Shown here: positions 1 through 51,270 of the stretch, piece by piece | Position numbering within the stretch: position 1 is the first letter of the stretch | Layout of the letters: every line of letters begins with the position of its first letter | Assembly: GCF_964204865.1 (NCBI RefSeq) | Contig: NC_135259.1 | Location: 21,214,974 to 21,278,973, forward strand | Source: Styela clava | Taxonomy: Eukaryota; Chordata; Ascidiacea; Stolidobranchia; Styelidae | Direction: 5' to 3' | DNA length: 64,000 nucleotides | Position numbers and translations under genes: made by a program | Notes under the pieces: model-generated | Told to the model about the DNA's origin: nothing | The model's database searches: none | The model's input: only the letters and a program-made list of their open reading frames with translations

Positions 1-9
1 GTGATGGGG

Positions 10-74
10 GCCTCTATGGCGCAGTAGGCAGCGTGTGAGTCTCAAGGTCGTGAGTTCAATACTCACTTGGGGAA
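10..74 (+). pseudogene. Anticodon-less tRNA-Met copy
   Basis: Compared with the Met consensus, 8 nt are missing between two ctca repeats, which removes the CAT anticodon. A box and a B box of the form GTTCAATAC remain. The acceptor 3' strand reads ttgggga and pairs poorly. Confidence 0.85.
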
Positions 75-252
75 CATTAAATACTTTAGACCTGATGCAA
101 CAGTTCAGAAAGACATATCTACCGTGATATCTAGCTTTTGGAGTTGATTCCAATTTCGGTTTCCTTAAACACTGAATTACTTCACTCGTTTTCACTTTAT
201 AAGATTTCAATAGGGTTCCTATATTTTATTTGCTACCCTGTGTGCATAGAAA

Positions 253-335
253 GGCAGAATGGCCGAGCGGTCTAAGGCGCTGCGTTCAGGTCGCAGTCTC
301 CGATGGAGGCGTGGGTTCGAATCCCACTTCTGTCA
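253..335 (+). tRNA. tRNA-Leu-CAG: tRNA-Leu (CAG)
   Basis: This is an 83-nt class II tRNA that matches the array's Leu consensus exactly. It has anticodon loop TTCAGGT, a long variable arm TCTCCGATGGAGG, T arm GTGGG-TTCGAAT-CCCAC, acceptor GGCAGAA/TTCTGTC with a G2-U71 wobble, and A73. A T6 run 3-8 nt downstream is a strong pol III terminator. Eukaryotic tRNA-Leu(CAG) genes have nearly this sequence. Confidence 0.95.
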
Positions 336-568
336 TATTTTTTGCACACAAATCCTTAAACTCGGGTCGGATCGTATAACTTAGACCTGATGCGAAAGAA
401 CATAAACACGTCTATTGTAATCTAAGCTGCTGCGTTCAGGTCGCAGTGTCTGATTGAGACTTGGTTTCGTAACCCGCTCTTGTCATGATGCTGGCACACA
501 AGTCATTTCGGAATAATCAATGACGTTATTCATTGATTTTGTTATATATATGGCTCTTCGTGATAGAA

Positions 569-641
569 GCTTGGATTGCGCAGTAGGCAGTGCGTGAGTC
601 TCATAATCTCAAGGTCGTGAGTTCGATCCTCACTCGAGGCA
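569..641 (+). tRNA. tRNA-Met (CAT), diverged acceptor
   Basis: The acceptor 5' strand is gcttgga, giving a G5-G68 mismatch and a U3-G70 wobble. The D stem has one wobble. Anticodon and T arm are intact, so a weak gene is possible. Confidence 0.6.
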
Positions 642-838
642 CATAAATATTTTAGACTTGATGCGACAGAAAGAACACATGTCTTATGTAATCTAAGGCG
701 TTACGTTTATTTTGCAGTCTTCCAATGAGACTTGGATTTGTGACACGCTTCTGTCATACTGTTGGCACGCAAATCCTTTTTGAACAATAAATGACGAACC
801 AATAAAATTTGTTATATATATTGCTCGCTTTGATGGGA

Positions 839-911
839 GCCTCGATGGCGCAGTAGGCAACGCGTGAGTCTCATAATCTCAAGGTCGTGAGTTCGATCCT
901 CACTCGAGGCA
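839..911 (+). tRNA. tRNA-Met (CAT), A22 variant
   Basis: One change: G22 to A gives a C13-A22 mismatch at the end of the D stem. Confidence 0.8.
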
Positions 912-1110
912 CATAAATATTTTAGACTTGATGCGACAGAAATGAACACATGTCTAATGTAATCTAAGGCGCTACGTTTATTTCGCAGTCTTCCAATGAG
1001 ACTTGGATTTGTGACACGCTTCTGTCATACTGTTGGCACGAAAATCCTTTTTGAACAATAAATGACGAAACAAATAGAACTTGTTATATATATTGATCGC
1101 TTTGATGGGA

Positions 1111-1183
1111 GCCTCGATGGCGCAGTAGGCAGCGCGTGAGTCTCATAATCTCAAGGTCGTGAGTTCGATCCTCACTCGAGGCA
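1111..1183 (+). tRNA. tRNA-Met-CAT: tRNA-Met (CAT), exact consensus
   Basis: Exact 73-nt consensus. The downstream T run is only T3 (atatttcag), a weak terminator. Confidence 0.95.
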
Positions 1184-1602
1184 TATAAATATTTCAGACT
1201 TGATGTGGCAGAACAGGACACATGTCTAATGTAATCTAAGTCGCTGCGTCCATGTCGCAGTCTTCTAGTGAGACTTGGATTTGTGACACGCTTCTGTCAT
1301 ACTGTTGGCACACAAATACTTTTCAAACAATGAATGACGAAATAATAGATTTTGTTGAACATATTTCCCGATGTGATGGGGGGCTGCGAATCTCAAGGTC
1401 GTGAGTTCAATCCTCACTTGGGGAACATTAAATACTTTAGACCTGATGCGACAGTCCAGAAAGACATATCTATCGTGCTATCTAGATTTGGAGTTGATTC
1501 CAATTTCGGTTTCTTAAAACACTGAATTACTTCACTCGTTTTCACTTTATAAGATTTCAATAAGATTCCTATATTTTATTTGCTACCCTGTGTGCATAGC
1601 AG

Positions 1603-1685
1603 TGCAGAATGGCCGAGCGGTCTAAGGCGCCACGTTCATGTCGCAGTCTTCCATTGAGACTTGGATTTGTGACACGCTTCTGTCA
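1603..1685 (+). pseudogene. Full-length degenerate tRNA-Leu with CAT loop
   Basis: This copy keeps the 5' half of Leu (ggccgagcggtctaagg), but the anticodon loop reads TTCATGT and the T arm is lost (ggatttgtgac replaces the B box). Similar copies lie near 9959, 12116, 17293, 20896, 39541, 42046 and 45384. Confidence 0.8.
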
Positions 1686-1769
1686 TACCGTTGGCACATA
1701 AACCCTTTTTGAACAATAAATGACGAAACAAATAGAATTTGTTATATATATATGCTCGCTTTGATGGGA

Positions 1770-1834
1770 GCTTCGATGGCGCAGTAGGCAGCGCGTGAGT
1801 CTCAAGGTCGTGAGTTCAATCCTCACTTGGGGAA
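1770..1834 (+). pseudogene. Anticodon-less tRNA-Met copy
   Basis: Same 8-nt deletion. The acceptor begins gcttcga and the B box is GTTCAATCC. Confidence 0.85.
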
Positions 1835-2012
1835 CATTAAATACTTTAGACCTGATGCGACAGTCCAGAAAGACATATTTAACGTGATATCTAGCTTTTG
1901 GAGTTGATTCCAATTTCGGTTTCCTAAAACACTGAATTACTTCACTCGTTTTCACTTTATAAGATTTCAATAGGGTCCCTATATTTTATTTGCTACCCCG
2001 TGAGCATAGAAA

Positions 2013-2095
2013 GGCAGAATGGCCGAGCGGTCTAAGGCGCTGCGTTCAGGTCGCAGTCACCGATGGAGGCGTGGGTTCGAATCCCACTTCTGTCA
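2013..2095 (+). tRNA. tRNA-Leu-CAG: tRNA-Leu (CAG), variable-arm variant
   Basis: One change from consensus: tctccg to tcaccg, which breaks one pair of the variable-arm stem. T6 terminator present. Confidence 0.85.
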
Positions 2096-2532
2096 TATTT
2101 TTTGCACACAAATCCTTAAACTCGGGTCGGATCGTATAACTTAGACCTGATGCGAAAGAACATAAACACGTCTATTGTAATCTAAGCTGCTGCGTTCAGG
2201 TCGCAGTGTCTGATTGAGACTTGGTTTCGTAACCCGCTCTTGTCATAATGCTGGCACACAAGTCATTTCAGAACAATCAATGACGTTAATCATTGCTTTG
2301 TAATATATATGGCTCCTCGTGATAGAAGCCTGGATTGCGCAGTAGGCAGTGCGTGACTCTCATAATCTCAAGGTCGTCAGTTCGATCTAAGGCGCTACGT
2401 TTATTTCGCAGTCTTCCAATGAGACTTGGATTTGTGACGCGCTTCTGTCATACTGTTGGCACGCAAATCCTTTTTGAACAATAAATGACGAACCAATAGA
2501 ATTTGTTATATATCTTGCTCGCTTTGATGGGA

Positions 2533-2605
2533 CCCTCGATGGCGCAATAGGCAGCGCGTGAGTCTCATAATCTCAAGGTCGTGAGTTCGATCCTCACTCG
2601 AGGCA
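2533..2605 (+). tRNA. tRNA-Met (CAT), C1 variant
   Basis: G1 is replaced by C, giving a C1-C72 mismatch. One D-loop G is A (caatagg). Confidence 0.65.
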
Positions 2606-2803
2606 CATAAATATTTTAGACTTCATGCGACAGAAAGAACATATGTCTAATGTAATATAAGACGCTACGTTCATGTCGCAGTCTTCCATTGAGACTTGGA
2701 TTTGTGACACGCATCTGCCATACCGTTGGCACACAAATTCTTTTTGAACAATAAATGACGAAACAAATAGAATTTGTTATAAATATTGCTCGCTTTGATG
2801 GGA

Positions 2804-2876
2804 GCTTCGATGGCGCAGTAGGCAGCGCGTGAGTCTCATAGTCTCAAGGTCGTGAGTTCGATCCTCACTCGAGGCA
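2804..2876 (+). tRNA. tRNA-Met (CAT), T3 and G38 variant
   Basis: C3 to T gives a U-G wobble, and the last loop base is G (ctcatag). Otherwise consensus. Confidence 0.75.
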
Positions 2877-3073
2877 CATAACTATTTTAGACTTGATGCG
2901 ACAGAAAGAACACATGTCTAATGTAATCTAAGGCGCTACGTTTATTTTGCAATCTTCCATTGAGACTTGAAGTTGTGACACGCTTCTGTCATACTGATGG
3001 CACACAAATCTTTTTCGAACAATAAATGCGAAAATAATAGATTTTTTTATATATATTGCTCGATTTGATGGGA

Positions 3074-3146
3074 GCCTCGATGACGCAGTAGGCAGCTCGT
3101 GAGTCTCATAATCTCACGGTCGTGAGTTCAATCCTCACTCTAGACA
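3074..3146 (+). pseudogene. Degenerate tRNA-Met (CAT)
   Basis: The D stem is broken (gacgc/gctcg), the T loop is ttcaatc and the 3' acceptor strand tctagac mismatches at two positions. Relatives at 39977, 42482, 45820 and 48770 share these changes. Confidence 0.75.
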
Positions 3147-3343
3147 CATAACATATTTTATCTTGATGCGACAGAACAGAACACATGTCTAATGTAATCT
3201 AAGGCGCTACGTTTATGTCGCAGTCTGTCATGAGACTTGGATTTGTGACACGCTTCTGTCATACTGTTAGCACACAAAACCTTTTCGAACAATGAATGAC
3301 GAAACAAGTGTAATTTTTATATATATTGCTCGCTCTTAAGGGA

Positions 3344-3416
3344 GCCTCGATGGCGCAGTAGGCAGCGCGTGAGTCTCATAATCTCAAGGTCGTGAGTTCG
3401 ATCCTCACTCGAGGCA
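3344..3416 (+). tRNA. tRNA-Met-CAT: tRNA-Met (CAT), exact consensus
   Basis: Exact consensus with a T4 run 9-12 nt downstream. Confidence 0.95.
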
Positions 3417-3613
3417 CATAAATATTTTAGACTTGATGCGACAGAAAGAACACATGTCTTATGTAATCTAAGGCGTTACGTTTATTTTGCAGTCTTCCAA
3501 TGAGACTTGGATTTGTGACACGCTTCTGTCATACTGTTGGCACGCAAATCCTTTTTGAACAATAAATGACGAACCAATAAAATTTGTTATATATATTGCT
3601 CGCTTTGATGGGA

Positions 3614-3686
3614 GCCTCGATGGCGCAGTAGGCAACGCGTGAGTCTCATAATCTCAAGGTCGTGAGTTCGATCCTCACTCGAGGCA
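3614..3686 (+). tRNA. tRNA-Met (CAT), A22 variant
   Basis: C13-A22 mismatch only. T4 downstream. Confidence 0.8.
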
Positions 3687-3883
3687 TATAATTATTTTAG
3701 ACTTGATGCGACAGAAAGAACACATGTCTAATGTAATCTAAGGTGCTGCGTCCATGTCGCAGTCTTCTAGTGAGACTTGGATTTGTGACACGCTTCTGTC
3801 ATACTGTTGGCACACAAATACTTTTCAAACAATAAATGCAAAAATAGTAGATTTTGTTGATCATATTTTCCGATGTGATGGGG

Positions 3884-3948
3884 GCCCCTGTGGCGCAGTA
3901 GGCAGCGTGTGAGTCTCAAGGTCGTGAGTTCAATACTCACTTGGGGAA
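3884..3948 (+). pseudogene. Anticodon-less tRNA-Met copy
   Basis: The acceptor begins gcccctg. The 8-nt deletion is present, and the B box reads GTTCAATAC. Confidence 0.85.
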
Positions 3949-4126
3949 CATTAAATACTTTAGACCTGATGCGACAGTACAGAAAGACATTTCTACCGTG
4001 ATATCTAGCTTTTGGAGTTGATTCCAATTTCGGTTTCCTAAAACACTGAATTACTTCACTCGTTTTCACTTTATGAGATTTCAATAGGGTTCCTATATTT
4101 TATTTGCTACCCTGTGTGCATAGAAA

Positions 4127-4209
4127 GGCAGGATGGCCGAGCGGTCTAAGGCGCTGCGTTCAGGTCGCAGTCTCCGATGGAAGCGTGGGTTCGAATCCCA
4201 ATTCTGTCA
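4127..4209 (+). tRNA. tRNA-Leu (CAG), mutated
   Basis: G6 (wobble with U67), a variable-arm change (ggaag), and a T-stem C65 to A mismatch. Probably weak. Confidence 0.6.
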
Positions 4210-4646
4210 TATTTTTTGCACACAAATCCTTAAACTCGGGTCATATCGTATAACTTAGACCTGGTGCGAAAGAACATAAACACGTCTATTGTAATCTAAG
4301 CTGCTGCGTTCAGGTCGCAGTGTCTGATTGAGACTTGGTTTCGTAACCCGCTCTTGTCTTAATGCTGGCACACAAGTCATTTCATAACAATCAATGACGT
4401 TAATCATTGCTTTGTAATATATATGGCTCTTCGTGATAGAAGCCTGGATTGCGCAGTAGGCAGTGCGTGACTCTCATAATCTCAAGGTCGTCAGTTCGAT
4501 CTAAGGCGCTACGTTTATTTCGCAGTCTTCCAATGAGACTTGGATTTGTGACACGCTTCTGTCATACTGTTGGCACGCAAATCCTTTTTGAACAATAAAT
4601 GACGAACCAATAGAATTTGTTATATATATTGCTCGCTTTGATGGGA

Positions 4647-4719
4647 GCCTCGATAGCGCAGTAGGCAGCGCGTGAGTCTCATAATCTCAAGGTCGTGAGT
4701 TCGATCCTCACTCGAGGCA
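4647..4719 (+). tRNA. tRNA-Met-CAT: tRNA-Met (CAT), A9 form
   Basis: Consensus except for A at position 9, which is the base usual in animal tRNA-Met. Fully paired. T4 downstream. Confidence 0.94.
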
Positions 4720-4919
4720 CATAAATATTTTAGACTTTATGCGACAGAAAGAGAACATATGTCTAATGTTATATAAGACGCTACGTTCATGTCGCAGTCT
4801 TCCATTGAGACTTGGATTTGTGACACGCATCTGTCATACCGTTGGCACACAAATTCTTTTTGAACAATAAATGACGAAACAAATAGAATTTGTTATATAT
4901 ATTGCTCGCTTTGATGGGA

Positions 4920-4992
4920 GCCTCGATGGCGCAGTAGGCAGCGCGTGAGTCTCATAATCTCAAGGTCGTGAGTTCGATCCTCACTCGAGGCA
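4920..4992 (+). tRNA. tRNA-Met-CAT: tRNA-Met (CAT), exact consensus
   Basis: Exact consensus with T4 downstream. Confidence 0.95.
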
Positions 4993-5189
4993 CATAAATA
5001 TTTTAGACTTGATGCGACAGAAAGAACACATGTCTAATGTAATCTAAGGCGCTACGTTTATTTCGCAGTCTTCTAATGAGACTTGGATTTGTGACACGCT
5101 TCTGTCATACTGTTGGCACGCAAATCCTTTTTGAACAATAAATGACGAACCAATAGAATTTGTTATATATATTGCTCGCTTTGATGGGA

Positions 5190-5304
5190 GCCTCGATGGC
5201 GCAGTAGGCAGCGCGTGAGTCGCGTGGCCGAGCGGTCTAAGGCGCCACGTTCAAGTCGCAGTCTTCCATTGAGACTTGGATTTGTGACACGCTTCTGTCA
5301 TACC
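5190..5304 (+). pseudogene. 5'-half Met fused to degenerate Leu
   Basis: The first 31 nt of Met (through gcgcgtgagt) join a Leu body at cgtggccgagcgg, whose T arm is lost. The same joint recurs at 23173. A shortened relative lies at about 7816. Confidence 0.8.
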
Positions 5305-5384
5305 GTTGGCACACAAACCCTTTTCGAACAATAAATGACGAAACAAATAGAATTTGTTATATATATATGATCGCTTTGATGGGA

Positions 5385-5449
5385 GCTTCGATGGCGCAGT
5401 AGGCAGCGCGTGAGTTTCAAGGTCGTGAGTTCAATCCTCACTTGGGGAA
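5385..5449 (+). pseudogene. Anticodon-less tRNA-Met copy
   Basis: The loop remnant reads gagtttcaagg. The B box is GTTCAATCC. Confidence 0.85.
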
Positions 5450-5569
5450 CATTAAATACTTTAGACCTGATGCGACAGTCCAGAAAGACATATCTACCCT
5501 GATATCTAGCTATTGGAGTTGATTCCAATTTCGGTTTCCTAAAACACTGAATTACTTCACTCGTTTTCG

Positions 5570-14347: not shown

Positions 14348-14420
14348 GCCTCGATGGCGCAGTAGGCAGCGCGGGAGTCTAATAATCTCAAGGTCGTGAG
14401 TTCGATCCTCACTCGAGGCA
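14348..14420 (+). pseudogene. Met body with AAT anticodon
   Basis: The anticodon loop reads CTAATAA, so the anticodon is AAT (Ile). Base 27 is G, opposite A43. The A and B boxes are intact. Confidence 0.7.
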
Positions 14421-14617
14421 CATAAATATTTTAGACTTCATGCGACAGAAAGAACACATGTCTAATGTAATATAAGACGCTACGTTCATGTCGCAGTCTT
14501 CCATTGAGACTTGGATTTGTGACACGCTTCTGTCATACTGTTGGCACACAAATACTTTTCAAACAATAAATGCAAAAATAGTAGATTTTGTTGAACATAT
14601 TTCCCGATGTGATGGGG

Positions 14618-19321: not shown

Positions 19322-19394
19322 GCCTGGATTGCGCAGTAGGCAGTGCGTGAGTCTCGTAATCTCAAGGTCGTGAGTTCGATCCTCACTCGAGGCA
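19322..19394 (+). pseudogene. Met body with CGT anticodon
   Basis: The loop reads CTCGTAA, so the anticodon is CGT (Thr). The acceptor is the gcctgga type with a G5-G68 mismatch. Confidence 0.7.
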
Positions 19395-19593
19395 CATAAA
19401 TATTTTAGACTCGATGCTACAGAAAGGAACACATGTCTAATGTAATCTAAGGCGCTACGTTTATTTCGCAGTCTTCCAATGAGACTTGGATTCGTGAAAC
19501 GCTTCTGTCATACTGTTGGCACGCAAATCCTTTTTGAACAATAAATGACGAAACAAATAGAATTTGTTATATATATTGCTCGCTTTGATGGGA

Positions 19594-29240: not shown

Positions 29241-30995
29241 TAGGGATGGGCAATATAGAATACCGAATCCGGAGGATTCGAATCCCAAAGTATTCGAATC
29301 CAACGGGATCCGATAACAGGATTCGGTTTCCGCCTCTCCGGCGCCAAGAGTCAATTTTTGTATTTCGGGTTTCTAATTTATCAATTATAGACGAGCGTTT
29401 TTCTCGCGTGGAAATCTCTCTCGTTTAATTAAACTTGCGTCTGCTCGCGAAGAACCCGTAAATCGGTAAACATCAAACACTGTAATTTCAATCGGCATAT
29501 TCAAGACAAGAAGTCGGCAATATAACCTCACGCCGAGGACTCGTTATTGCACCATTTTTGCGTTTTCCTTCTTTGCTATCTAGCTAGCGTTATTTACTGG
29601 TGATATTCCGATAATCTTAACGTTACTTAGTGATGATATTCCGATAATCTAAATGCAACAATCTTTAATTGTTTACAGACGTGCCTTGCCTCATTTTAAA
29701 TTAAATGATTTTTCGCGACCTACGAGTTTTCCCAAAAAAATGATGCACGTAAACCAAAAGCCGGGCGTTAAATGTTATAACATTACTCGCCATTAATTTA
29801 AATCAAATATTATTTACGAATAATTTTATCATACCATTTTCCGAAATACAAAGTTATATCGCAAAACGCGAACAACTGTCACATTTAAATTTCACTCTCA
29901 AAAGATTACATATTTTTCGATCCGTTTCTATCGTTCAAGATAGACGCACGTTTGATTTTAGTCGCCGATAAATTTTGAAAAAAATTGCCGCATCTGGCGA
30001 AGATAATGACGTATTGAATTTGAGTAGGGCTAAGTCTGGGTAGATAATGATTATTGATAACATTCCTATCGTTCAAGATAGGCGCACGTTTGATCGAGTG
30101 TCTGTAGTATTTTAGTCGCCGATAAATTTTGAAAAAAGTTGCCGCATCTGGCGAAGAGAGTGACGTATTGAATTTGAGTAGGGCTAAGTCTGGGTAGATA
30201 ATGATTAATGATAACATTTCTATCGTTCAAGATAGACGCACGTTTGATCGGAAGTCTGTAGTATTTTAGTCGCCGATGAATTTTGAAAAAAGGTGCCGCA
30301 TCTGGCGAAGCTAGTGACGTATTGAATTCGAGTAGGGCCAAGTCTGGGTAGATAATGATATGTAACGATAATCATAGAAAATGAGTTCGTCTTCAGATGT
30401 TATTACCTAATAACTAAGTACGAAATCGCGTTTACGGGAACTTGGTTTTACGTGTCTTGCTCTCACAGAATAAATGGTTGATTTTAATTGATAGTGGTTA
30501 AATTTAATATTTTACAACGGCGCATAGGTTGCAGTGGCCACACGCTGGTTCTCAGCGGGTATGTTTTAGTATACTCGGCAGACTTACATTAATAATGATT
30601 TAACGCCGTTACATGTCTATTTTGTATTTAACCGCTTACTATTAAAGTGTGTAAAGCGTGTCTTAATTTAGCATATCAGTATTTATTAGTATTTAGGGAT
30701 TACATACATTTGGAACAATTGAAGGCAAAAAATATTGTAATATTCCTAAATTTTATTGTCCTGGGAACTGCCTGTTTAGTATCAAATGAAATCCAATGTT
30801 CAGGACATTTCCAAATAGATAATACATTTATAGTAAGTAATACATTTGCAATTTTTTACCATCTAAATCCAGCAATGTAGAAATTCCCACTATTTGAATA
30901 AGTATAAAAATAGAATAGGATTCGGTATTCTGGATTCGATTTAACTATTCTAGAATATTCTAGAATAGTAAATTATTCTACATTGCCCATCCCTA
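29241..30995. mobile_element. hAT-like DNA transposon, non-autonomous
   Basis: This 1,755-bp insertion interrupts the array at the 3' end of a Leu remnant. Both sides carry the 8-bp target duplication gtcatact (29233-29240 and 30996-31003). The ends are inverted repeats that start TAGGGATGGGCAAT and stay similar for about 22 bp; a second shared motif, gaataccgaatcc, lies just inside. The empty site is preserved at 25,042, at a 4,198-bp offset. 8-bp duplications and TAGGG-type ends fit the hAT superfamily. No transposase reading frame is recognisable, so it would depend on a helper. A 77-codon frame at 30647-30880 resembles nothing I know. Confidence 0.88.
29926..30360. repeat. Three 138-154 bp tandem repeats inside the hAT-like element
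   Basis: Units start with ctatcgttcaagatag at 29928, 30066 and 30220 and end with gtctgggtagataatgat. They explain the overlapping minus-strand open frames here. A diverged relative of the unit lies at about 36,713-36,795. Confidence 0.85.
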
Positions 30996-31081
30996 GTCAT
31001 ACTGTTAGCACACAAAACCTTTTCGAACAATGAATGACGAAACAAGTGTAATTTTTATATATATTGCTCGCTTTGAAGGAA

Positions 31082-32114: not shown

Positions 32115-32187
32115 GCCTCGATGGCGCAGTAGGCAGCGCGTGAGTCTAATAGTCTCAAGGTCGTGAGTTCGATCCTCACTCGAGGCA
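32115..32187 (+). pseudogene. Met body with AAT anticodon
   Basis: Loop CTAATAG, so the anticodon is AAT as at 14348, here without the stem change at base 27. Confidence 0.7.
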
Positions 32188-32384
32188 CATAAATATTTTA
32201 GACTTCATGCGACAGAAAGAACACATGTCTAATGTAATATAAGACGCTACGTTCATGTCGCAGTCTTCCATTGAGACTTGGATTTGTGACACGCTTCTGT
32301 CATACTGTTGGCACACAAATACTTTTCAAATAATAAATGCAAAAATAGTAGATTTTGTTGAACATATTTCCCGATGTGATGGGG

Positions 32385-34369: not shown

Positions 34370-34565
34370 TATAATTATTTCAGACTTGATGTGACAGAAC
34401 AGGACACATGTCTAATGTAATCTAAGTCGCTGCGTCCATGTCGCAGTCTTCTAGTGAGACTTAGATTTGTGACACGCTTCTGTCATACTGTTGGCCAGTG
34501 TTCACTATTAGCGCACTTTTTTGCGAAAATTGCGAAGCACTTTCGCAACTTTTTTTAGGGACTGC

Positions 34566-34625
34566 GAAATAGCACTTTTTTCCGATTTTGAAGGGAAATA
34601 GCACTTTTTTCCGATTTTGAATGGA
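34566..34625. repeat. 27-bp tandem duplication near the left end
   Basis: The segment aaatagcacttttttccgat plus ttgaa occurs twice in a row inside the subterminal region. Confidence 0.8.
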
Positions 34626-35884
34626 ATAAAAATTCAAAGTTAACAAATATTTTCGAGTATTAAGTTGACAAATAAGTAACATACTAGTACTTTTGTAACT
34701 CAATTCTGCATATCATAACGATATTTACCGGGATTCTAACCTATGAGATGCAGACATAGGAGATAAAGCTTTTGCATTAACCGCAAAATTCTTGTTTATA
34801 TTATGATTATTATACAAGCACACGGATTCCGCTTCTCCCGCAAAACGCTCCGCGTCTTTGAAACCAGATGTTGGAATACTAGGCAGTGCCTTTCTTTGAA
34901 CGAACGTGGTCATGTGACTATCAATGATATCGTTGAATTCAAAATGACTATAAAAGTGTTAGTAAAGTGTTATAGTCACTTTGGATGTATTGTGACCAAA
35001 GTGCACGATTTTCAAACCAGACGAAACTTTTAGCAGCATGTCACAGATTTGCAAAATCACCAAATTCACAAAATACCATTAAGTGCCATTTTATTGTAAT
35101 CACAATGTTGAAAGCACGTGGCATTTTGCGATATTTACACAACTATTTCTCATTGATATGCGAGTACGGGTGGGCAAAATTCAATATTTTATTGAATTGA
35201 ATATTTTTAACGAGTACCGAATAACAAATATTTTTGGAACGTTGGGCGAAACATTAAAAAATCGGCAACAAAGCCTTTTTACTGGTTAATTCCGTTGTAT
35301 ACGCTAATTGTTCTTGTCACCGATCGTTTTGGCGGCGATATTCAGGTTTTGTTAATCTATATTCCCGCCCTCTCTTTTTTACAAATATGAATTCTTGCGG
35401 GTCGGTGGCCATCGAAGTTTTATATTTCGGGTTTACCCGTTTGTTCACATCGGCAACAGCGGTTGAAGACATTGAGGACTCAAATTAACATTTGCGTTGG
35501 CTTTAATATTACCTATCAAGATTTGTAAATTTACGGTCCCAATTTTATGCGAATGGTAATATTATTGTCGATACCGTGATGCTGATATTTATTAAGACGA
35601 TAACTAACTTTCTCATGTTTTTCTATGGTGATAAACTTCGCAAATCTGAAATTGTGCCAATCCTGAATGTTGATTTAAAATAGTGATTGAATAATTCGAC
35701 AATAAAGGCATTTCTGCGTGGTCATAAAACGAGATGGCGTTAATGAACAGCACTTCTTTTACAGGATATCTTACGTATGCGACTTAATGCTAAAAAGATT
35801 GGACTCGAGTGCTTTTTTTTTTGAGTGCTCGAGTGCCTAATAGAGGTCAGGCGCTAATTGTAACTAATTCCCCCAAGTTTCAAC

Positions 35885-36025
35885 ATGTTTTCAACAAAAC
35901 AATACCCCGGCGATAATTATAGCTAAAATGTTACCGAGCAATTCACAATTTTATTTATGGAATTTGAAAATTCACCAGTTTCTTGACGATATTGATAATG
36001 CCACGCCCTAATTATTAGTGCAAAA
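35885..36025 (+). repeat. Direct repeat, copy 1
   Basis: ttcaacaaaacaataccccg to ccctaattatta. A diverged second copy lies at 37,040-37,170 within the same nested insertion. Confidence 0.8.
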
Positions 36026-36284
36026 AATACTCCCCTTCTTCCGCGGCGGTTTGACGGGTTCTTTGTTCCAATCTTCAGAAATTTCTGACACGGGGGATAT
36101 TGAATACTGAATCCGAAGGGTTGAATCCCTGTCGACTTACTGGTGATTTTCCGTTTTGGAATGCGTGGAACATTCTCTATTTTAAATTGAATGACGTTTC
36201 GCGGGCTAGAGTTCTCCCCGAAAATGATATGTACCAGACGTTAGTTAGACAATAGATAAAACATTAGATTAATATATTTCATGA

Positions 36285-36660
36285 CGCCCCGTTTTCGAAA
36301 ATACAAAATTATATCGCAAAAAAATGCGTTTTAATACATTTGGAATGAAACATTATTTACGGTTAATTCAGATCCTATTTTACTCTTCATGACACCCGGT
36401 ATCCGAAAATACAGTTGTATTGCGAAAAATGTGTTTTGTTACATTTAAAATAAAACATTTTTGCGATTAATTTAGATCATATTTTACTTCTCAGGACACC
36501 CGTTTTCGAAAATACAAGGTTATATCGCAAAATGTGTTTTGTTACATTTAAAATAAAACATTTTTGCGATTAATTTAGATCAAATTTTACCTTTCACGGC
36601 AATCCGTTTCCGAAAATACAAAGTTATATCACAAAAAAATGCGTTTTGTTACATTTGTTT
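36285..36660 (+). repeat. Tandem repeat of about 104 bp, roughly 3.5 units
   Basis: Units are phased by cgaaaatacaa followed by tatatcgcaaaa and gttacattt; atac recurs at 36301, 36409, 36512 and 36616. Confidence 0.85.
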
Positions 36661-37039
36661 AGCATTCCCAACAAAATACATATTTTCCCTAATTAAAGTC
36701 GTCGATGAATCTGTTCCTGTCGGTCAAGCTTGACACACGTTTGGACGAGTGTGGGGCGGTTTTTTGGTCGACGATAAATTAAAAAGTTGCCACACGTTAT
36801 TTGTATAACGATAATAACTGAAAAATTAGATTTTATAATAGAAGTGAATTTGTCCCAAGATGGTATTTTACGATTCTTGCCCACAGAAAATAAACACGCT
36901 GACAGGCTTGGTTATAATTGATATTCGTTTAATTTATTTTACACTATTAATAAACGCGCCACGCCAAGTGCGGCCATATAAATTGCAGTCGCATCGGTAT
37001 GGACTGTATGTTTTGGGCGCTCTCACATTAATTATAATT

Positions 37040-37170
37040 TTCAACAAAACAATACCCCGACGGTCATTGAAGCTGAATTCGTTACCGAGTAATTCACAAT
37101 TTTATTTACGGAATTTGCAATTTCAAGATCTCACTTGACGATTTTGATGATGTCATGCCCTAATTATTAC
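37040..37170 (+). repeat. Direct repeat, copy 2
   Basis: Diverged second copy of 35,885-36,025. Confidence 0.8.
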
Positions 37171-39706
37171 TGCTTAAATGCCTCAAAATACAACAAATGT
37201 AATCATTTTCGACGATAACAGGCGCAACAATTCGTAAACGAGCCGAAATTCGAAATTGATTTTACCTCTCTCTTGTTTACAATTTTATCATCCCGCCGGT
37301 CATGTATGGTCGAATAAAATGTTCACATATTCGAAACATGACTTGGCCAAGGATGCGAGGGATCACTAAAGAGCTAATAGAAAGTACATACGCGAGGGTA
37401 TGATATTAATATCGAGAATATTTGTGAGCATATCACAGGACGGAAATATTTTGCACCCGGCTGTTTGTTGGCAGAACAACGATACGCTAAAGTTAATTGA
37501 TCGAATACAGGGAAGTATTTATTTATCATCTCACTTGCGAACATCGAGGTTTGGGCGGAATTGTACGATCATGTTGTCTTTCTTAAATAATAACTTTTTC
37601 AATGAATGTTCATTTTACTTTTGCGTCTTTATTATGTGTCGGGTTTTCATTAATTTTAAATTCGAAACTGTCCGAAATACTCCAACAGGTGTATAAGTAC
37701 AATAATAATAGTACTTACCAGGGAAGTTTAATACACACGATGTGTTAAGGGCGTCGTAACTCCCGTTTTTTAATTTGATTGTTTTACATTCTGCTTAAAA
37801 AACAACGTCGTTTTGCAGTCATCTAAGTAACTCTCGCGACCAAATCTTTTTTGTTTTGTATGCCATCGTCTTGGCGACGAATTTATTGCCGACTGAATTT
37901 TAATTGTGTTTTAGGATAAGTTATTTTCTGTTTGTTGGTTTCTAAACTTTACAAACGTGGGTAGCAATTACTATTAATGTGAGATTTGTGCATATGAACG
38001 ATTGAATATAGCGACTGGATGTCCGATATCTGAGAATGCGTATATCAGCGTTCATGTGGTCAAATAAAAATTATTTATGAAATGGATTGGTATTTCGAGA
38101 CACTCTCAATATTATTTGGGATCCACTATCATATCATTCGTTTATTTTTTATATTCATGTTTTTTTCAAGAAACACCCTCGTTATATTTCGTGTACCTTT
38201 GCAAAAGAAAACTCTGTGGTGTCATCGTTCCTATTAGTGTAATTGAAATATATGGAAACCTCGCAAGTGGCGTTGTGATGCGAATATTTGATACTAGGTC
38301 AGCAGCATTACAAAGAGTGCCATTTATGAATGCTGAAAGTACGTGGCATTACTAAACATTTTGCCAATATATGATGTTTTCTGCCCGATTTAAACTAACT
38401 CGCACGCAAACCAAGGCATGCCGACATTTAAAAATTACTTGTCTTTGGGTAAGCTCTAAAATAGTATAATATAAATGTAAATGAGAAATTAGGTCACGCC
38501 AGCTCACGAAAGGGGAGGATTTTCAAAGTGATCTTGTATAATATTTCGGAGAAAAAAGTTTGAAAGGAAAGTAGGTCAACCTATCTCCTAAAACAGGGGA
38601 GTATCCTGTGTAATATTTGGGAGGGAACGTAGGTTAACCTATCTTTTAAAACAGCGGGTGGCGACTTTCAAAGTGGTTAAAAATCACAAATTAATAATTA
38701 TCAGTTTAGGTTTAGGGATAAATCGAAAAGTTGAATTTCCAGCGCACCTAACCCTAATTAGTTGATTGCTATTTATATTATTGGGGGGGATTATTTTGCA
38801 CGGAATTTGTACAAATGATCCACCCTGTAACTAATATGGTTTCCAGCCTACGTGTATCAATTGTTGTCTGTTAGATGGAAGGAGTAACAAATGTGAAAGC
38901 CTTTGCTGTTCACCGAGTAAGCAACTGACACCGTGATACATTGCATGAAAGTTTTGTTCGCGGCAAGTGTTAGCAGATGTCTTTTCGTTGCCGATGAATT
39001 CGCTTGTTTCAATTAAACATGAATTCGCTTAAAGGGAACTCGGTTAAAGGAAAGGCTTCTCTTTAATTCATAATATTAACCGGAGGAGCGCTTTTTCGAG
39101 TATCTATGCCGTTTTAAATGGGTTATATGAAAGGCTAGAGCACCTAACTTGTTAAAATCGGCAAAAGCACTTTCGCACTTTTTTTTTCGACTGCGAAGCA
39201 CTTTCGCACTCATAATTCGCTTAGAGTTAACACTGCAGTGTTGGCACACAAATACTTTTCAAACAATGAATGACGAAATAATAGATTTTGTTGAACATTT
39301 TTTCCCGATGTGATGGGGGGCTGCGAGTCTCAAGGTCGTGAGTTCAATCCTCACTTGGGGAACATTAAATACTTTAGACCTGATGCGACAGTCCAGAAAG
39401 ACATATCTACCGTGATATCTAGCTTTTGGAGTTGATTCCAATTTCGGTTTCTTAAAACACTGAATTACTTCACTCGTTTTCACTTTATAAGATTTCAATA
39501 AGATTCCTATATTTTATTTGCTACCCTGTGTGCATAGCAGTGCAGAATGGCTGAGCGGTCTAAGGCGCCACGTTCATGTCGCAGTCTTCCATTGAGACTT
39601 GGATTTGTGACACGCATCTGTCATACCGTTGGCACACAAATTATTTTTGAACAATAAATGACGAAACAAATAGAATTTGTTATAAATATTGCTCGCTTTG
39701 ATGGGA

Positions 39707-45819: not shown

Positions 45820-45892
45820 GCCTCGATGACGCAGTAGGCAGCTCGTGAGTCTCATAATCTCACGGTCGTGAGTTCAATCCTCACTCTAGACA
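45820..45892 (+). pseudogene. Degenerate tRNA-Met (CAT)
   Basis: Class of 3074; duplicate of 42482. Confidence 0.75.
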
Positions 45893-46090
45893 CATAACAT
45901 ATTTTATCTTGATGCGACAGAACAGAACACATGTCTAATGTAATCTAAGGCGCTACGTTTATGTCGCAGTCTTCCATGAGACTTGGATTTGTGACACGCT
46001 TCTGTCATACCGTTGGCACACAAACCCTTTTCGAACAATAAATGACGAAACAAATAGAATTTGTTATATTTATTGCTCGCTTTGATGGGA

Positions 46091-46155
46091 GCCTCGATGG
46101 CGCAGTAGGCAGCGCGTGAGATCCAAGGTCGTGAGTTCAATCCTCACTTGGGGAA
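46091..46155 (+). pseudogene. Anticodon-less tRNA-Met copy
   Basis: gagatccaagg form; duplicate of 42753. Confidence 0.85.
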
Positions 46156-46333
46156 CATTAAATACTTTAAACCTGATGCGACAGTCCAGAAAGACATATC
46201 TACCGTGATATCTAGCTTTTGGAGTTGATTCCAATTTCGGTTTCCTAAAACACTGAATTACTTCACTCGTTTTCACTTTATAAGATTTCAATAGGGTCCC
46301 TATATTTTATTTTCTACCCTGTGTGCACAGAAA

Positions 46334-46416
46334 GGCGGAATGGCCGAGCGGTCTAAGGCGCTGCATTCAGGTCGCAGTCTCCGATGGAGGCGTGGGTTCG
46401 AATCCCACTTCTGTCA
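46334..46416 (+). tRNA. tRNA-Leu (CAG), G4/A31 variant
   Basis: ggcggaa acceptor, A31-C39 mismatch, consensus variable arm. Confidence 0.7.
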
Positions 46417-46856
46417 TATTTTTTGCACACAAATCCTTAAACTCGGGTCGGATCGTATAACTTAGACCTGATGCGAAAGAACATAAACACATGTCTATTG
46501 TAATCTAAGCTGCTGCGTTCAGGTCGCAGTGTCTGATTGAGACTTGGTTTCGTAACCCGCTCTTGTCATAATGCTGGCACACAAGTCATTTCAGAACAAT
46601 CAATGACGTTAATCATTGATTTTGTTATATATATGGCTTTTCGGGATAGGAGCCTGGATTGTGCAGTAGGCAGTGCGTGACTCACATAATCTCAAGGTCG
46701 TGAGTTCGATCTAAGGCGCTACGTTTATTTCGCAGTCTTCCAATGAGACTTGGATTTGTGACACGCTTCTGTCATACTGTTGGCACGCAAATCCTTTTTG
46801 AACAATAAATGACGAACCAATAGAATTTGTTATATATATTGCTCGCTTTGATGGGA

Positions 46857-46929
46857 GCCTCGATGGCGCAGTAGGCAGCGCGTGAGTCTCATAATCTCAC
46901 GGTCGTGAGTTCAATCCTCACTCTAGACA
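46857..46929 (+). pseudogene. Mosaic tRNA-Met (CAT)
   Basis: The 5' half is consensus and the 3' half is of the degenerate class (ttcaatc, tctagac), so two acceptor pairs fail. It looks like an exchange between the two classes. Confidence 0.75.
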
Positions 46930-47127
46930 CATAACATATTTTAGACTTCATGCGACAGAACAGAACACATGTCTAATGTAATCTAAGGCGCTACGTTTAT
47001 GTCGCAGTCTTCCGTGAGACTTGGATTTGTGACACGCTTCTGTCATACTGTTGGCACACAAATACTTTTCAAACAATAAATGCAAAAATAGTAGATTTTG
47101 TTGAACATATTTCCCGATGTGATGGGG

Positions 47128-47192
47128 GCCTCTATGGCGCAGTAGGCAGCGTGTGAGGCTCAAGGTCGTGAGTTCAATCCTCACTTGGGGAA
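47128..47192 (+). pseudogene. Anticodon-less tRNA-Met copy
   Basis: The loop remnant is gaggctcaagg. Confidence 0.85.
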
Positions 47193-47370
47193 CATTAAAT
47201 ACTTTAGACCTGATGCGACAGTCCAGAAATACATATCTACCGTGATATCTAGCTTTTGGAGTTGATTCCAATTTCGGTTTCCTAAAACACTGAATTACTT
47301 CACTCGTTTTCACTTTATAAGATTTCAATAGGGTTCCTATATTTTATTTGCTACCCTCTGTGCATAGAAA

Positions 47371-47453
47371 GGCAGAATGGCCGAGTGGTATAAGGCGCTG
47401 CGTTCAGGTCGCAGTCTCCGATGGAGGCGTGGGTTCCAATCCCATTTCTGTCA
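47371..47453 (+). pseudogene. Degenerate tRNA-Leu (CAG)
   Basis: D loop gtggtataag, T loop ttccaat and T stem cccat. The B box is damaged. Confidence 0.7.
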
Positions 47454-47893
47454 TATTTTTTGCACACAAATCCTTAAACTCGGGTCGGATCGTATAACTT
47501 AGACCTGATGCGAAAGAACATAAACACATGTCTATTGTAATCTAAGATGCTGCGTTCAGGTCGCATTGTCTGATTGAGACTTGGTTTCGTAACCCGCTCT
47601 TGTCACAATGCTGGCACACAAGTCATTTCAGAACAATCAGTGACGTTATTCATTGATTTTGTTATATATATGGCTCTTCGTGATAGAAGCCTGGATTGCG
47701 CAGTAGGCAGTGCGTGACTCTCATAGTCTCAAGGTCGTGAGTTCGATCTAAGGCGCTACGTTTATTTCGCAGTATTCTAATGAGACTTGGATTTGTGACA
47801 CGCATGTGTCATACTGTTGGCATGCAAATCCTTTTTGAACAATAAATGACGAACCAATAGAATTTGTTATATATATTGCTCGCTTTGATGGGA

Positions 47894-47966
47894 GCCTCGA
47901 TGGCGCAGTAGGCAGCGCGTGAGTCTCATAATCTCAAGGTCGTGAGTTCGATCCTCACTCGAGGCA
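47894..47966 (+). tRNA. tRNA-Met-CAT: tRNA-Met (CAT), exact consensus
   Basis: Exact consensus with T4 downstream. Last exact copy before the array edge. Confidence 0.95.
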
Positions 47967-48160
47967 TATAAAATATTTTATCTTGATGCGACAGAACAGA
48001 ACACATGTCTTATGTAATCTAACGCGCTGCGTCCATGTCGCAGTCTTCAAGTGAGACTTGGATTTGTGACACGCTTAACTACATAAATACACAAATACTT
48101 TTCAAACAATAAATGCAAACATAATAGATTTTGTTCTATATATTGCTCGCTTTGATGGGA

Positions 48161-48225
48161 GCCTCGATTGCGCAGTAGGCAGCGTGTGAGTCTCAAGGTC
48201 GTGAGTTCAATCCTCACTTGGGGAA
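48161..48225 (+). pseudogene. Anticodon-less tRNA-Met copy
   Basis: Duplicate of 43786 at a 4,375-bp offset. Confidence 0.85.
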
Positions 48226-48769
48226 CATTAAATACTTTAGACCTGATGCGACAGGAGGCGTGGGTTCGAATCCCATTTCTGTCATATTTTTTGCACACAA
48301 ATCCTTAAACTCGGGTCGGATCGTATAACTTAGAACTGATGCGAAAGAACATTAACACATGTCTATTGTAATCTGAGCTGCTGCGTTCAGGTCACAGTGT
48401 CTGATTGAGACTCGGTTTCGTAACCCGCTCTTTTCATAATGGTGGCACACAAGTCATTTCAGAACAATCAATGACGTTAATCATTGGTTTTCTTATATAT
48501 ATGGCTCTTTGTGATAAAAGCCTGGATTGCGCAGTAGGCAGTGCGTGACTCTCATAATCTCAAGGTCGTGAGTTCGATCTAAGGCGCTACGTTTATGTCG
48601 CAGGCTTCCATGGAGACTTGGATTTGTGACACGCTTCTGTCATACTGTTGGCACACAAATACTTTTCAAATTTCCAAACAATAAATGCAATGATGCCACG
48701 CAAATTCTTTTCGAACAATAAATGCGAAAATAATAGATTTTGTTATATATATTGTTCGCTTTGATGGGA

Positions 48770-48842
48770 GCTTCGTTGACGCAGAAGGCAGCTCGTAAGT
48801 CTCATAATCTCACGGTCGTGAGTTCAATCCTCACTCTAGACA
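48770..48842 (+). pseudogene. Degenerate tRNA-Met (CAT)
   Basis: gcttcgt acceptor, gacgc D stem, D loop agaaggca, tctagac 3' strand. Confidence 0.7.
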
Positions 48843-49143
48843 CATAACATATTTTAGACTTGATGCGACAGAACAGAACACATGTCTAATGTAATCTAAG
48901 GCGCTACGTTTATGTCGCGGTCTTCCAATGAGACTTGGATTTGTGACACGCTTCTGTCATACTGTTGACACACCAAACCTTTTCGAACAATGAATGACGA
49001 AAAAAATGTAATTTGTTATATATATTGCTCGCTTTGATGGAATTGTGACACGCTTCTGTTGTACTGTTGGCACACAAATACTTTTTAAACAATAAATGCA
49101 AAAATAATAGATTTTGTTAAACATATTTCCCGATGTGATGGGG

Positions 49144-49208
49144 GCCTCTATGGCGCAGTAGGCAGCGTGCGAGTCTCAAGGTCGTGAGTTCAATCCTCAC
49201 TTGGGGAA
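49144..49208 (+). pseudogene. Anticodon-less tRNA-Met copy
   Basis: B box GTTCAATCC; the anticodon stem remnant begins cgagt. Confidence 0.85.
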
Positions 49209-49386
49209 CATTAAATACTTTAGACCTGATGCGACAGTCCAGACTGACATATCTATCGTGATATATAGCTTTTGGAGTTGATTCCAATTACGGTTTCTTA
49301 AAACACTGAGTTACTTCACTCGTTTTCACTTTATAAGATTTCAATAAGGTTCCTACATTTTATTTGCTACCCTGTGTGCATAGAAA

Positions 49387-49465
49387 GGCAGAATGGCCGA
49401 GCGGTCTAAGGCGCTGCGTTCAGGTCGCAGTCTCCGATGGAGGCGTGTGTTTGAATCCCACTTCT
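49387..49465 (+). pseudogene. tRNA-Leu (CAG) interrupted by a LINE fragment
   Basis: The first 79 nt of a Leu gene are present (T stem gtgtg, T loop ttgaat altered). Its last bases, gtca, occur 805 bp plus a 7-bp target duplication later, at 50278-50281, followed by the usual T6 run. Confidence 0.85.
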
Positions 49466-49983
49466 ACATCTCCAATGCAGAAAGAATCTGTAGCTACAGA
49501 ATAGTCCAAAATGGATACTTTTTCGGAAACCGTCGCAAAGGCACCTCACTCCGCCATGATCAATTCGGAAAAATTAGGATCCTAAATTGTAAATTTTGTA
49601 AAGCGAATTCGGACTCTACTGAACATATTTTCCTCCACTGCTCAAAAATAACCGAGCACATCCAATATTTACAAACTTGTTCGAACGCAATCAGCCAGCA
49701 AAAGATAAAAACTACAAACAAAAATATTTACTATAATAGCCACTCGGGACCACAACTTATAGCGACAAACAAACTCTTCGCTATTATGAAACGGGAAACA
49801 ATAAAACTGAAAATAAAATTAGATATCGAAAACCGATATAATGGCCCTTTTGATATTTGCATAACAACAGCCACAATCAAAATGTACAAAGAATTCCTGA
49901 GCACTATAATCAATAAATACGGAGATACTCGGTTGTTAGGTAGGAATAGTCCCAAACTGGAAGATAATCCTAAACGGATATGA
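49466..49983 (+). pseudogene. LINE ORF2 C-terminal fragment (CCHC)
   Basis: The open frame that begins upstream at 49393 starts inside the tRNA; only the part after 49466, about 170 residues, belongs to the element. It contains CKFC followed by eight residues, then H, IFLH and C: a CX2CX8HX4C zinc knuckle of the kind found downstream of the reverse transcriptase in L1, Tx1 and R2-type LINEs. The last 130 residues are lysine-rich and end ...NPKRI before TGA. The reverse transcriptase and endonuclease are absent. Assignment rests on the knuckle and the insertion structure. Confidence 0.6.
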
Positions 49984-50270
49984 GCGAGGCTAATATACGT
50001 AACATTAACCCAAGGTCATACCCCGCTACCCATAAACGGTAGCTTAGATAAGTCAATACCATCTACCGCCCCGTCGGAAATGATGAAACGGAAGCTTCGG
50101 GGGCGGCAATTATGCTATGTTCACAACCCCCTGACATACGTATGATTGCTGCATATGCAGCGATATGTTTATGAAGCGTATTACCGTTACAACTCGGACA
50201 TGACGTATTAATATAATACCGATCCGGTTTCACATCCGTACTCTGATCCGATATATAAAAAAAAAGTGTG
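49466..50270 (+). mobile_element. 5'-truncated non-LTR retrotransposon inserted in tRNA-Leu
   Basis: The insertion is bounded by a direct repeat cacttct (49459-49465 and 50271-50277) and ends in an A9 stretch followed by gtgtg. It encodes the C-terminal part of a LINE ORF2-like protein. 5' truncation, target duplication and an A-rich 3' end are the marks of target-primed reverse transcription. After the stop codon about 290 bp of 3' UTR follow. I cannot assign the clade with certainty. Confidence 0.75.
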
Positions 50271-50509
50271 CACTTCTGTCATATTTTTTGCACACAAATC
50301 CTTAAACTCGGGTCGGATCGTATAACTTAGACCTGATGCGAAAGAACATAAACACATGTCTATTGTTATCGAAGCTGAATCGAAGCATTCTCCGATTGAG
50401 ACTTGGGTTCTTACCCCGCTTCTGTCATATTGTTGGCACACAAATCCTATTCGAACAATAAATGAAAAAACTAATAGATTTTGTTATATATATTGCTGGC
50501 CAAAAAGGA

Positions 50510-50582
50510 GCATCGGTGGCGCAGTTGGCAGCGCGTGAGTTTCATAACCTCAAGGTCGTCAGTTCGATCCTCACCCGAGGCA
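50510..50582 (+). tRNA. Diverged tRNA-Met (CAT) at array edge
   Basis: The acceptor gcatcgg/ccgaggc has compensated change at base pair 7 and one mismatch at pair 3. Loop TTCATAA, T stem gtcag/ctcac with one mismatch, B box GTTCGATCC intact. It could be an older functional copy or a relic. Confidence 0.6.
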
Positions 50583-50814
50583 CATAACATATTTTATCTT
50601 GATGCGACAGAACAGAACACATGTCTAATGTAATCTAAGGCGCTACGTGCATGTCGCAGTCTTCGATTGAGACTTGTATTTGTAACATGCTTCTGTCGTA
50701 TTGACAGAGTGACTATCATAGTGGCACGCCTCTGTCAATGTTGACACACAAATCCTTATTAAATAAAAGCGAAAATGAAAGATTTTGTTATATATATTTC
50801 TCGCTGCAATGGGA

Positions 50815-50887
50815 GCCTCGATGGCGCAGTAGGCAGCGCATGAGTCTCATGATCTCAAGGTCGTGAGTTCCATCCTCACTCGGGGCT
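50815..50887 (+). pseudogene. Diverged tRNA-Met (CAT) at array edge
   Basis: T loop ttccatc, G37, 3' strand tcggggc and discriminator T. Confidence 0.6.
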
Positions 50888-51039
50888 ACAGTAAACATTT
50901 CAGACCTAGATCACAAACACAATGTCTTTTATTATATCAAGCTTTTGGATTTGGTTCCAAATCCGACACTTGAAATTCTTAATTATTTTACTCATTTTCA
51001 TTTTTCATACTTCAAACAAATTTTATATTTTGATTTTGC

Positions 51040-51270
51040 TACCATGCTCAGGGTTACTGGTTGGCACAGCGGTCTAAGGCGTTGCGTACAGGTGAGCGTG
51101 GGTTTAAATCAAGATCCTTTCATACAGCTGGTACTCAAAATGAATAATGATTTTTGTTATAAATTAAGGCCAGATGGGCAAAAACACAAACACATCTTTA
51201 TGACGAAATTAATTAATTTTGTAATTATTATTGTTCAACGTGATAGAAGCCTCGATGGTATGCTCAAATA
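51040..51270 (+). repeat. Decayed last array unit
   Basis: ggcacagcggtctaaggcg followed by gtacagg and gcgtgggtttaaatc is a worn Leu. The spacer motifs follow in the usual order (ctggtactcaaa, cagatgggcaaaaacacaaa, tagaagcctcgatgg), and homology then stops. Confidence 0.7.

Follow-up and report, generated by a model that had tools for sequence, protein, structure and literature searches.

Organization of the Array

The window, a stretch of 64,000 nucleotides from Styela clava, contains the right-hand part of a nested tandem array of tRNA-Met and tRNA-Leu genes. The window opens mid-array: the left start lies about 47 kb further left, and the whole array extends over approximately C13:21168262-21266066 (about 98 kb, entirely on the + strand), with non-array sequence flanking it on both sides. 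The array is real and extends beyond the window, and a total of 200 Met(CAT) and 38 Leu(CAG) tRNA calls was obtained for it. The tRNA-Met is presumably of the elongator type, as judged against known sequences. Representative elements of the window are as follows.

1..51258, +, right-hand part of the nested tRNA-Met/tRNA-Leu tandem array
253..335, +, intact tRNA-Leu(CAG) of class L with a T6 run downstream; block opener
421..485, +, Leu relic, class x; found 3' of nearly all Leu genes
3884..3946, +, Met relic, class b; ends most blocks
4442..4501, +, Met relic, class c; cut off past nt 60 and joined to a Leu relic
4572..4844, +, monomer of about 271 bp: upstream TATA-like box, tRNA-Met, T4 terminator, Leu relic
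4647..4719, +, intact tRNA-Met(CAT), class M; joint top Rfam score in the window, 66.7 bits
4774..4836, +, Leu relic, class l; tRNA-Leu match from nt 21 onward
14348..14421, +, Ile(AAT) anticodon on a Met backbone
19322..19395, +, Thr(CGT) anticodon on a Met backbone
32115-32188, +, Ile(AAT) anticodon on a Met backbone, second copy
50815..50887, +, rightmost Met copy; retains the acceptor-stem G that two dispersed genes carry

Between positions 253 and 50889 of the window, ARAGORN detected 96 tRNA genes (72 Met(CAT), 21 Leu(CAG), 2 Ile(AAT) and 1 Thr(CGT)), and Rfam gave 103 tRNA matches above the gathering score, every one inside the array. The single orientation stated in the original prediction was confirmed by 96/96 ARAGORN genes and by the 140 Met-like and 164 Leu-like segments of a sensitive BLAST scan of the window, 304/304 of them on the + strand. 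The predicted monomer of about 270 bp was likewise recovered, at about 271 bp, with a period of 269-273 in roughly half of the TRF rows (35 in total), and the expected number of about 25 consensus Met genes agreed with 23 exact consensus copies and 25 scoring at least 65.4 bits (Rfam). The array DNA in the window, estimated before at about 47 kb, amounted to about 44 kb once three insertions (29241-30995, 34496-~39235 and 49466-50270) were removed.

Two repeat levels are nested, the monomer of about 271 bp lying inside multi-kb blocks, and the repeats are head-to-tail, each bearing tRNA genes. The monomer consists of an elongator tRNA-Met and a Leu relic truncated at its 5' end, so that about half of it is tRNA-derived; the example relic at 4774..4836 is without the 5' part including the A box, and its B box is altered, as judged by eye. 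The repeat unit had been described as a pair of tRNA genes, which holds for the Met gene; its Leu partner is a dead relic, and Leu genes number about one per block. Leu is present not only as remnants, as had been proposed, given the 21 Leu(CAG) calls in the window. Blocks start with one Leu gene, contain monomer runs of 0 to 22 repeats, and mostly end with a Met relic missing the anticodon (class b), which an 8-nt deletion, TCTCATAATCTC to TCTC, takes out. The block grammar can be written as L-x-(c or M)-(lM)n-(dk)-l-b, and relic classes account for 346 of the 619 tokens of the array.

Insertions

Three insertions interrupt the array in the window.

29241..30995, DNA transposon insertion bounded by TAGGGATGGGCAAT termini, with an 8-bp target duplication, GTCATACT
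34496..39235, second insertion with CAGTGTT termini and an imperfect 8-bp duplication (7/8); right end within about 2 bp
49466..50270, +, 5'-truncated insertion inside a tRNA-Leu gene, with an A-rich tail and a 7-bp duplication, CACTTCT

The first two are taken to be hAT-like, the family being assigned from the type of terminus and duplication. The third, which bears a reading frame with a Cys/His motif and severed the 3' end of the Leu gene at 49387, is presumably LINE-like, as judged by eye.

Copies Inside and Outside the Array

In the whole assembly, 198 Met copies with three or fewer mismatches were found, 195 in the array and 3 dispersed, and 34 Leu(CAG) copies, 33 in the array and 1 dispersed, in a search that could overlook more divergent dispersed genes. 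Of the near-consensus elongator tRNA-Met and tRNA-Leu(CAG) genes in the assembly, nearly all belong to the array. The supply of Met by dispersed genes, which the original prediction had named as a refuting case, is less likely with these counts; the corresponding Leu(CAG) figures are 1 dispersed versus 33 array copies. A second elongator-Met class, with the other anticodon-stem pair, was looked for in the assembly with up to 1 mismatch allowed and gave 0 matches. A tRNA-derived SINE would be expected to leave dispersed copies of the whole unit, with an A-rich tail or target duplications; here, near-consensus Met copies are confined to the array apart from the three dispersed genes, which have the gene body alone in common with it, a minority of the 32,363 tRNA-like candidates of the genome being scored. 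Two of the three carry an acceptor-stem G, and the dispersed copy on C5 has the array-type base.

At least five tRNA arrays are present in the assembly, on five different contigs, each specific to one isoacceptor or pair; the Lys, Cys/Trp, initiator-Met/His and Asp arrays are located on four other large contigs. Elsewhere in the assembly, C9 carries a Glyco_hydro_6 (PF01341) exon (35.4 bits, cut-off 27), a signal given by 0 of 14 control genomes, and next to it lies an open frame that looks hydrophobic by eye; this is compatible with the cellulose synthase of a tunicate, GH6 in an animal being indicative of that group. A search of the assembly for mitochondrial COX1 gave no match.

Variant Spectrum of the Monomer

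Sites with singleton variants were similarly frequent in the Met gene (36/73) and in the rest of the monomer (80/201; p=0.17). In contrast, variants above 10% were found at 0/73 sites of the Met gene, including the acceptor and anticodon arms, versus 25/201 other monomer sites (p=5e-4), sites and copies being interdependent in these tests. The contrast was retained with 177 unique monomers (0/73 versus 28/201), with the 70 monomers left by a 98% collapse (1/73 versus 35/201) and with 211 core copies (0/73 versus 27/201). Common variants were also absent from the TATA-like box (0/10) and the T4 region (0/7). The array contains many structurally intact copies with Pol III signals: 155/221 have no more than three gene changes plus TATA and T4, and among the 92 exact-gene copies, 16 were without a TATA match and 10 without T4.

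Relic b (38 copies) had 6/63 common-variant sites; this control is weak because the value is only slightly above that of intact Met subsampled to 38 copies (mean 2.5/73, range 0-10). Pooled with M, the b and c relics had 5/60 common sites versus 20/68 in the Leu relics. Intact Leu (2/83 common sites) showed no clear extra constraint compared with the adjoining x relic (1/65) and the upstream stretch (3/75). The same test on the Cys array agreed with the Met pattern (2/71 gene versus 87/219 other sites, p=8e-11), whereas the Lys array, with all 163 full-length copies, showed no gene constraint (14/73 versus 37/242, p=0.47).

The rarity of common Met variants is as expected if selection keeps the array Met genes working; biased conversion toward the consensus could be another cause.

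Homogenization and Divergent Edges

Many blocks are 97-99% identical to each other, and the duplicated blocks detected at an identity of at least 97% include one of 6116 bp (98.9%) and one of 3345 bp (98.6%), plus others. An identical partner exists for 84/221 monomers, and the nearest neighbour of a monomer by similarity lies a median of 8 monomers off. Similarity did not drop with monomer distance over lags 1-120, and since lag-1 monomers are no more alike than distant ones, exchange does not proceed monomer by monomer. The gene was more divergent in the 10 edge copies (7.4%) than in the core copies (1.7%; one-sided p=1.6e-5). Of the 221 full-length copies, three had the acceptor-stem G, and these are the two at the left end and the one at the right end; the array core has been homogenized to a single base not found in these outermost copies. 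These features are those of concerted evolution with divergent edges. CpG depletion, a sign of germline methylation, was absent, with observed/expected ratios of 1.18 for the array core, 1.13 for the left flank and 0.98 for the right flank.

Unequal exchange is supported by block duplications, variable runs, recurring relic classes and divergent edges. It had been proposed to drive both dose and decay of the tRNA genes; decay is only part of the story, because variants of the Met gene, TATA-like box and terminator stay below high frequency.

Interpretation of the Array

From its sequence, the locus is best explained as a high-copy functional gene array, shaped by block-wise unequal exchange or conversion and by array-level selection (probability about 0.7). 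Exchange or conversion would act on multi-monomer blocks, duplicating them entire, and dead relics would therefore hitch-hike; selection would weed out arrays with an excess of broken Met genes, leaving Met, TATA-like box and terminator intact in most copies. The run length between Leu genes would shift the Met:Leu gene ratio. Intact promoter and terminator elements suggest Pol III transcription of the copies.

Satellites, too, are long arrays in which short monomers form higher-order repeats, and the array might be selfish or neutral, amplified without tRNA demand, with Met intact through recent homogenization or biased conversion. The preponderance of relic classes, the high identity of many blocks and the unconstrained Lys array are in favour of this; nevertheless, it is considered unlikely, as the gene, TATA-like box and terminator are constrained, unlike the Leu relic that shares their monomer, and the assembly yielded just three further near-consensus Met genes and no second Met class. 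Moreover, a satellite monomer lacks a functional gene, whereas here the Met gene is intact in most M copies, with few common variants, and is probably functional. A role in chromatin or replication, with dense TFIIIC sites acting as a boundary or as a fork barrier while the tRNAs are secondary, has been discussed for tRNA repeats and clusters (PMC4041453 and PMC2888827), but it would need A and B boxes only, yet the whole gene is free of common variants, and this role appears quite improbable. That the real copy number is lower or higher, or the order wrong, owing to misassembly could be suspected from the identical monomers and the multi-kb blocks at 97-99% identity; the variety of variants, the insertions at single sites, the ordered divergent edges, the non-array flanks to either side and the arrays on other contigs make an artefact highly improbable.

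Within the reading as a functional gene array, a two-class tunicate system is conceivable though doubtful, by analogy with frog oocyte versus somatic 5S genes: the arrays might feed eggs and early embryos, and the few dispersed genes other cells. The array-type acceptor-stem base and the conserved upstream TATA-like box would mark the arrays. This one-base difference would separate array from dispersed Met in tRNA sequencing, except for the C5 copy, and makes the use and timing of the tRNA gene copies testable by that method. Each array being isoacceptor-specific and on its own contig, the dose per isoacceptor could shift via array length alone. One contiguous assembly shows a tRNA family amplified, homogenized and partly broken together, in which relics of the same monomer provide an internal comparison.

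Comparison with Known tRNA Arrays

Tandem tRNA arrays as such are already known; no published report of this array was found in the literature searched, in which subscription journals were thinly covered. Older work on Xenopus reportedly described a 3.18-kb repeat, a kb-scale unit with several isoacceptors, unlike the 271-bp monomer of Styela, about half tRNA-derived. Tandemly arrayed tRNA genes of Xenopus, called oocyte-specific in a commentary (PMC11500080), represent, like those of Styela, tandem tRNA arrays in a chordate.

In Entamoeba, most tRNA genes lie in long tandem arrays, with 25 array units, one or few acceptor types per unit and no clear pseudogene evidence; short tandem repeats separate the array tRNA genes of E. 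histolytica (PMC2652664). The long arrays and the one or few acceptor types per unit are shared with Styela, which differs in being an animal, in its relic classes outnumbering the intact ones and in its nested blocks. One region of zebrafish chromosome 4 holds most tRNA genes (PMC11075544, PMC2888827); very large clusters, mostly of heterogeneous pairs in parallel orientation, are common to both species, and the single region of zebrafish contrasts with five Styela arrays on five contigs. The human 1q23.3 tRNA VNTR (PMC4041453) is also a tandem repeat with tRNA genes, present in human in variable copy number (9-43 copies), but tRNA genes make up less than 6% of its 7.3-kb unit, whereas the Styela monomer is about half tRNA-derived. 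Finally, the Ser-Tyr-Tyr cluster of Arabidopsis, silent in most tissues (PMC12308677), resembles the Styela array as a tandem isoacceptor combination whose sequence differs from that of dispersed genes; dispersed Tyr genes also exist in Arabidopsis, whereas the dispersed near-consensus Met genes of Styela are three.

Extent and organization of the tRNA-Met/tRNA-Leu array

The array, whose left end was located by adding 60 kb of sequence left of the window, spans about C13:21168262 to 21266066 (C13 is contig NC_135259.1; other C numbers denote contigs of the same assembly). The window corresponds to C13:21214974-21278973. In the window, 96 tRNA genes were called by ARAGORN (96/96 on the + strand), 103 tRNA matches were obtained with Rfam, and a sensitive scan returned 140 Met-like and 164 Leu-like segments (304/304 on +). 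Over the whole array, ARAGORN called 200 Met(CAT), 38 Leu(CAG), 2 Ile(AAT), 2 Thr(CGT), 1 Phe(AAA) and 1 gene without assignment (244/244 on +). Genes in the array with a Met backbone and an Ile(AAT) or Thr(CGT) anticodon (ARAGORN, window positions):
14348-14421, +, Met-backbone gene
32115-32188, +, Met-backbone gene
19322-19395, +, Met-backbone gene

The monomer (~271 bp) consists of an elongator tRNA-Met gene (73 nt), a 5'-truncated Leu relic (~65 nt) and a remainder, so that about 51% is tRNA-derived. Segments of the whole array, each assigned to the class whose sequence gave the top BLAST hit, comprised 45 L (Leu genes), 228 M (elongator Met genes), 217 l (the Leu relic of the monomer), 45 x (Leu relics downstream of L), 38 b (anticodon-deleted Met relics), 25 c (truncated Met relics fused to a Leu relic), 13 k and 8 d; the L and M counts include some truncated copies, ARAGORN calling 38 Leu genes against 45 L. 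A block opens with L and x, continues with c or M and a series of lM units, may then carry d k, and ends in l b, the final b being absent from some blocks. Runs hold 0 to 22 M, the longest lying in the left half of the array and shorter ones rightward. One tRNA-Leu gene is interrupted in its 3' end by a 5'-truncated LINE-like element (window 49466-50270), and gag-like open frames of a retroelement were recognized by eye right of the array (window 60835-62056, - strand).

Related genes and other arrays in the genome

The genome (376.6 Mb, 379 contigs) contained the Met consensus, with at most three mismatches, at 198 places, 195 in the array and one each on C3, C5 and C8, which closes the ledger; the Leu consensus, at the same limit, was found at 34 places, of which 33 belong to the array and the last lies on C9, and more divergent genes may escape these counts. 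A genome-wide search for elongator Met genes carrying the alternative anticodon-stem pair, at up to one mismatch, found none. The dispersed Met genes share the gene body with the array, but not the flanks. The gene at C5:6305771-6305843 has array-type sequence and unrelated flanks, and may have been converted by array copies.

In an initial pass with the Rfam tRNA model, 63 of 32,363 candidates genome-wide were scored, and many further tRNA relics, arrays or SINEs may exist. The Lys and Cys arrays came to light as top Rfam scores, a route biased towards arrays; initiator Met and Asp, two types selected by hand, both turned out to be arrayed:
C2, Lys(TTT) array, 81 calls in the 80 kb examined, plus 8 in the adjoining 5 kb
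C10, Cys(GCA) array, with Trp-type genes on the opposite strand
C4, initiator Met array, 176 copies, 176/176 on one strand; among the matches listed, all on C4, 22.666-22.744 Mb
C8, Asp(GTC) array, 160 copies; among the matches listed, all on C8

Met/Leu, initiator/His and Cys/Trp are paired; Lys and Asp look homotypic in the parts read. On the + strand of the C10 array, 5/12 ARAGORN calls carry the anticodon TCA, which the program labels SeC, and 7/12 CCA; the backbone of the TCA genes reads as tRNA-Trp, and these are possibly UGA-reading genes or relics. In both C4 loci read, tRNA-His lies ~4 bases downstream of initiator Met, as if co-transcribed. Most C4 initiator genes among the matches listed carry T directly 5' of the anticodon, the vertebrate pattern being C.

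Unplaced contigs hold a tRNA cluster of bacterial or phage type, of which seven genes were read on C154. On several contigs tRNA matches are spaced ~44-46 kb apart; besides C154, periodic matches occur on C98, C191, C216, C296 and C318. Phage matches were weak and partial only; the source is probably a microbial or phage contaminant.

Homogenization and constraint

A search for duplicated blocks (>=97% identity, >=1 kb) returned, among others:
6116 bp, 98.9% identity, shift 7247
3345 bp, 98.6% identity, shift 3338
3089 bp, 99.3% identity, shift 2863

The closest relative of a monomer lies at a median of 8 monomers, and mean distance is nearly flat with lag, up to lag 120, which together indicate that blocks, not single monomers, are the unit of exchange. 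Divergence is higher in the ten edge copies than in the core: 7.4% against 1.7% within the gene (one-sided p=1.6e-5) and 15.8% against 5.9% outside it (p=5e-4). At one acceptor-stem position, 221 Met copies comprise A 212, G 3, gap 5 and T 1, the three G copies being the two leftmost and the rightmost; the dispersed genes have G (C3, C8) or A (C5). Since G is the vertebrate state, the A of the array is probably derived.

Among 221 full-length Met units (relic classes b, c and d left out), sites with variants above 10% numbered 0/73 in the gene vs 25/201 in the rest of the monomer (p=5e-4), and sites with a variant in >5 copies 12/73 vs 81/201 (p=1.7e-4), with a possible small bias from BLAST-based sorting and the omission of relics; singleton-bearing sites were similar (36/73 vs 80/201, p=0.17). 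The result held after duplicates were dropped (177), after 98% collapse (70) and without edges (211). Common-variant sites were 0/10 in a TATA-like box and 0/7 in the terminator region. With b and c pooled back with M they were 5/60, and 20/68 in the Leu relics l+x.

The explanation preferred, at a probability of about 0.70, is an array homogenized by block-scale exchange or conversion, in which selection would keep the Met genes working. The Cys array repeats the pattern (2/71 vs 87/219, p=8e-11). The Lys array, in which intact copies and relics are inseparable, does not (14/73 vs 37/242, p=0.47); taken by itself, the b relic makes a poor control, and no clear gain in constraint relative to the neighbouring x relic was seen in intact Leu genes. 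The Lys result and the weakness of the b and Leu controls argue against selection as a general rule, and the probability given above takes them into account.

Comparison with known tRNA arrays

Tandem or clustered tRNA genes are already known from Entamoeba (PMC2652664), human and mouse (PMC4041453), zebrafish and other animals (PMC2888827, PMC11075544), Xenopus (PMC11500080) and Arabidopsis (PMC12308677). Compared with these, what differs in Styela clava is a short monomer that is half tRNA, its nesting in blocks, relic classes that recur, and the location of the arrays on separate contigs.
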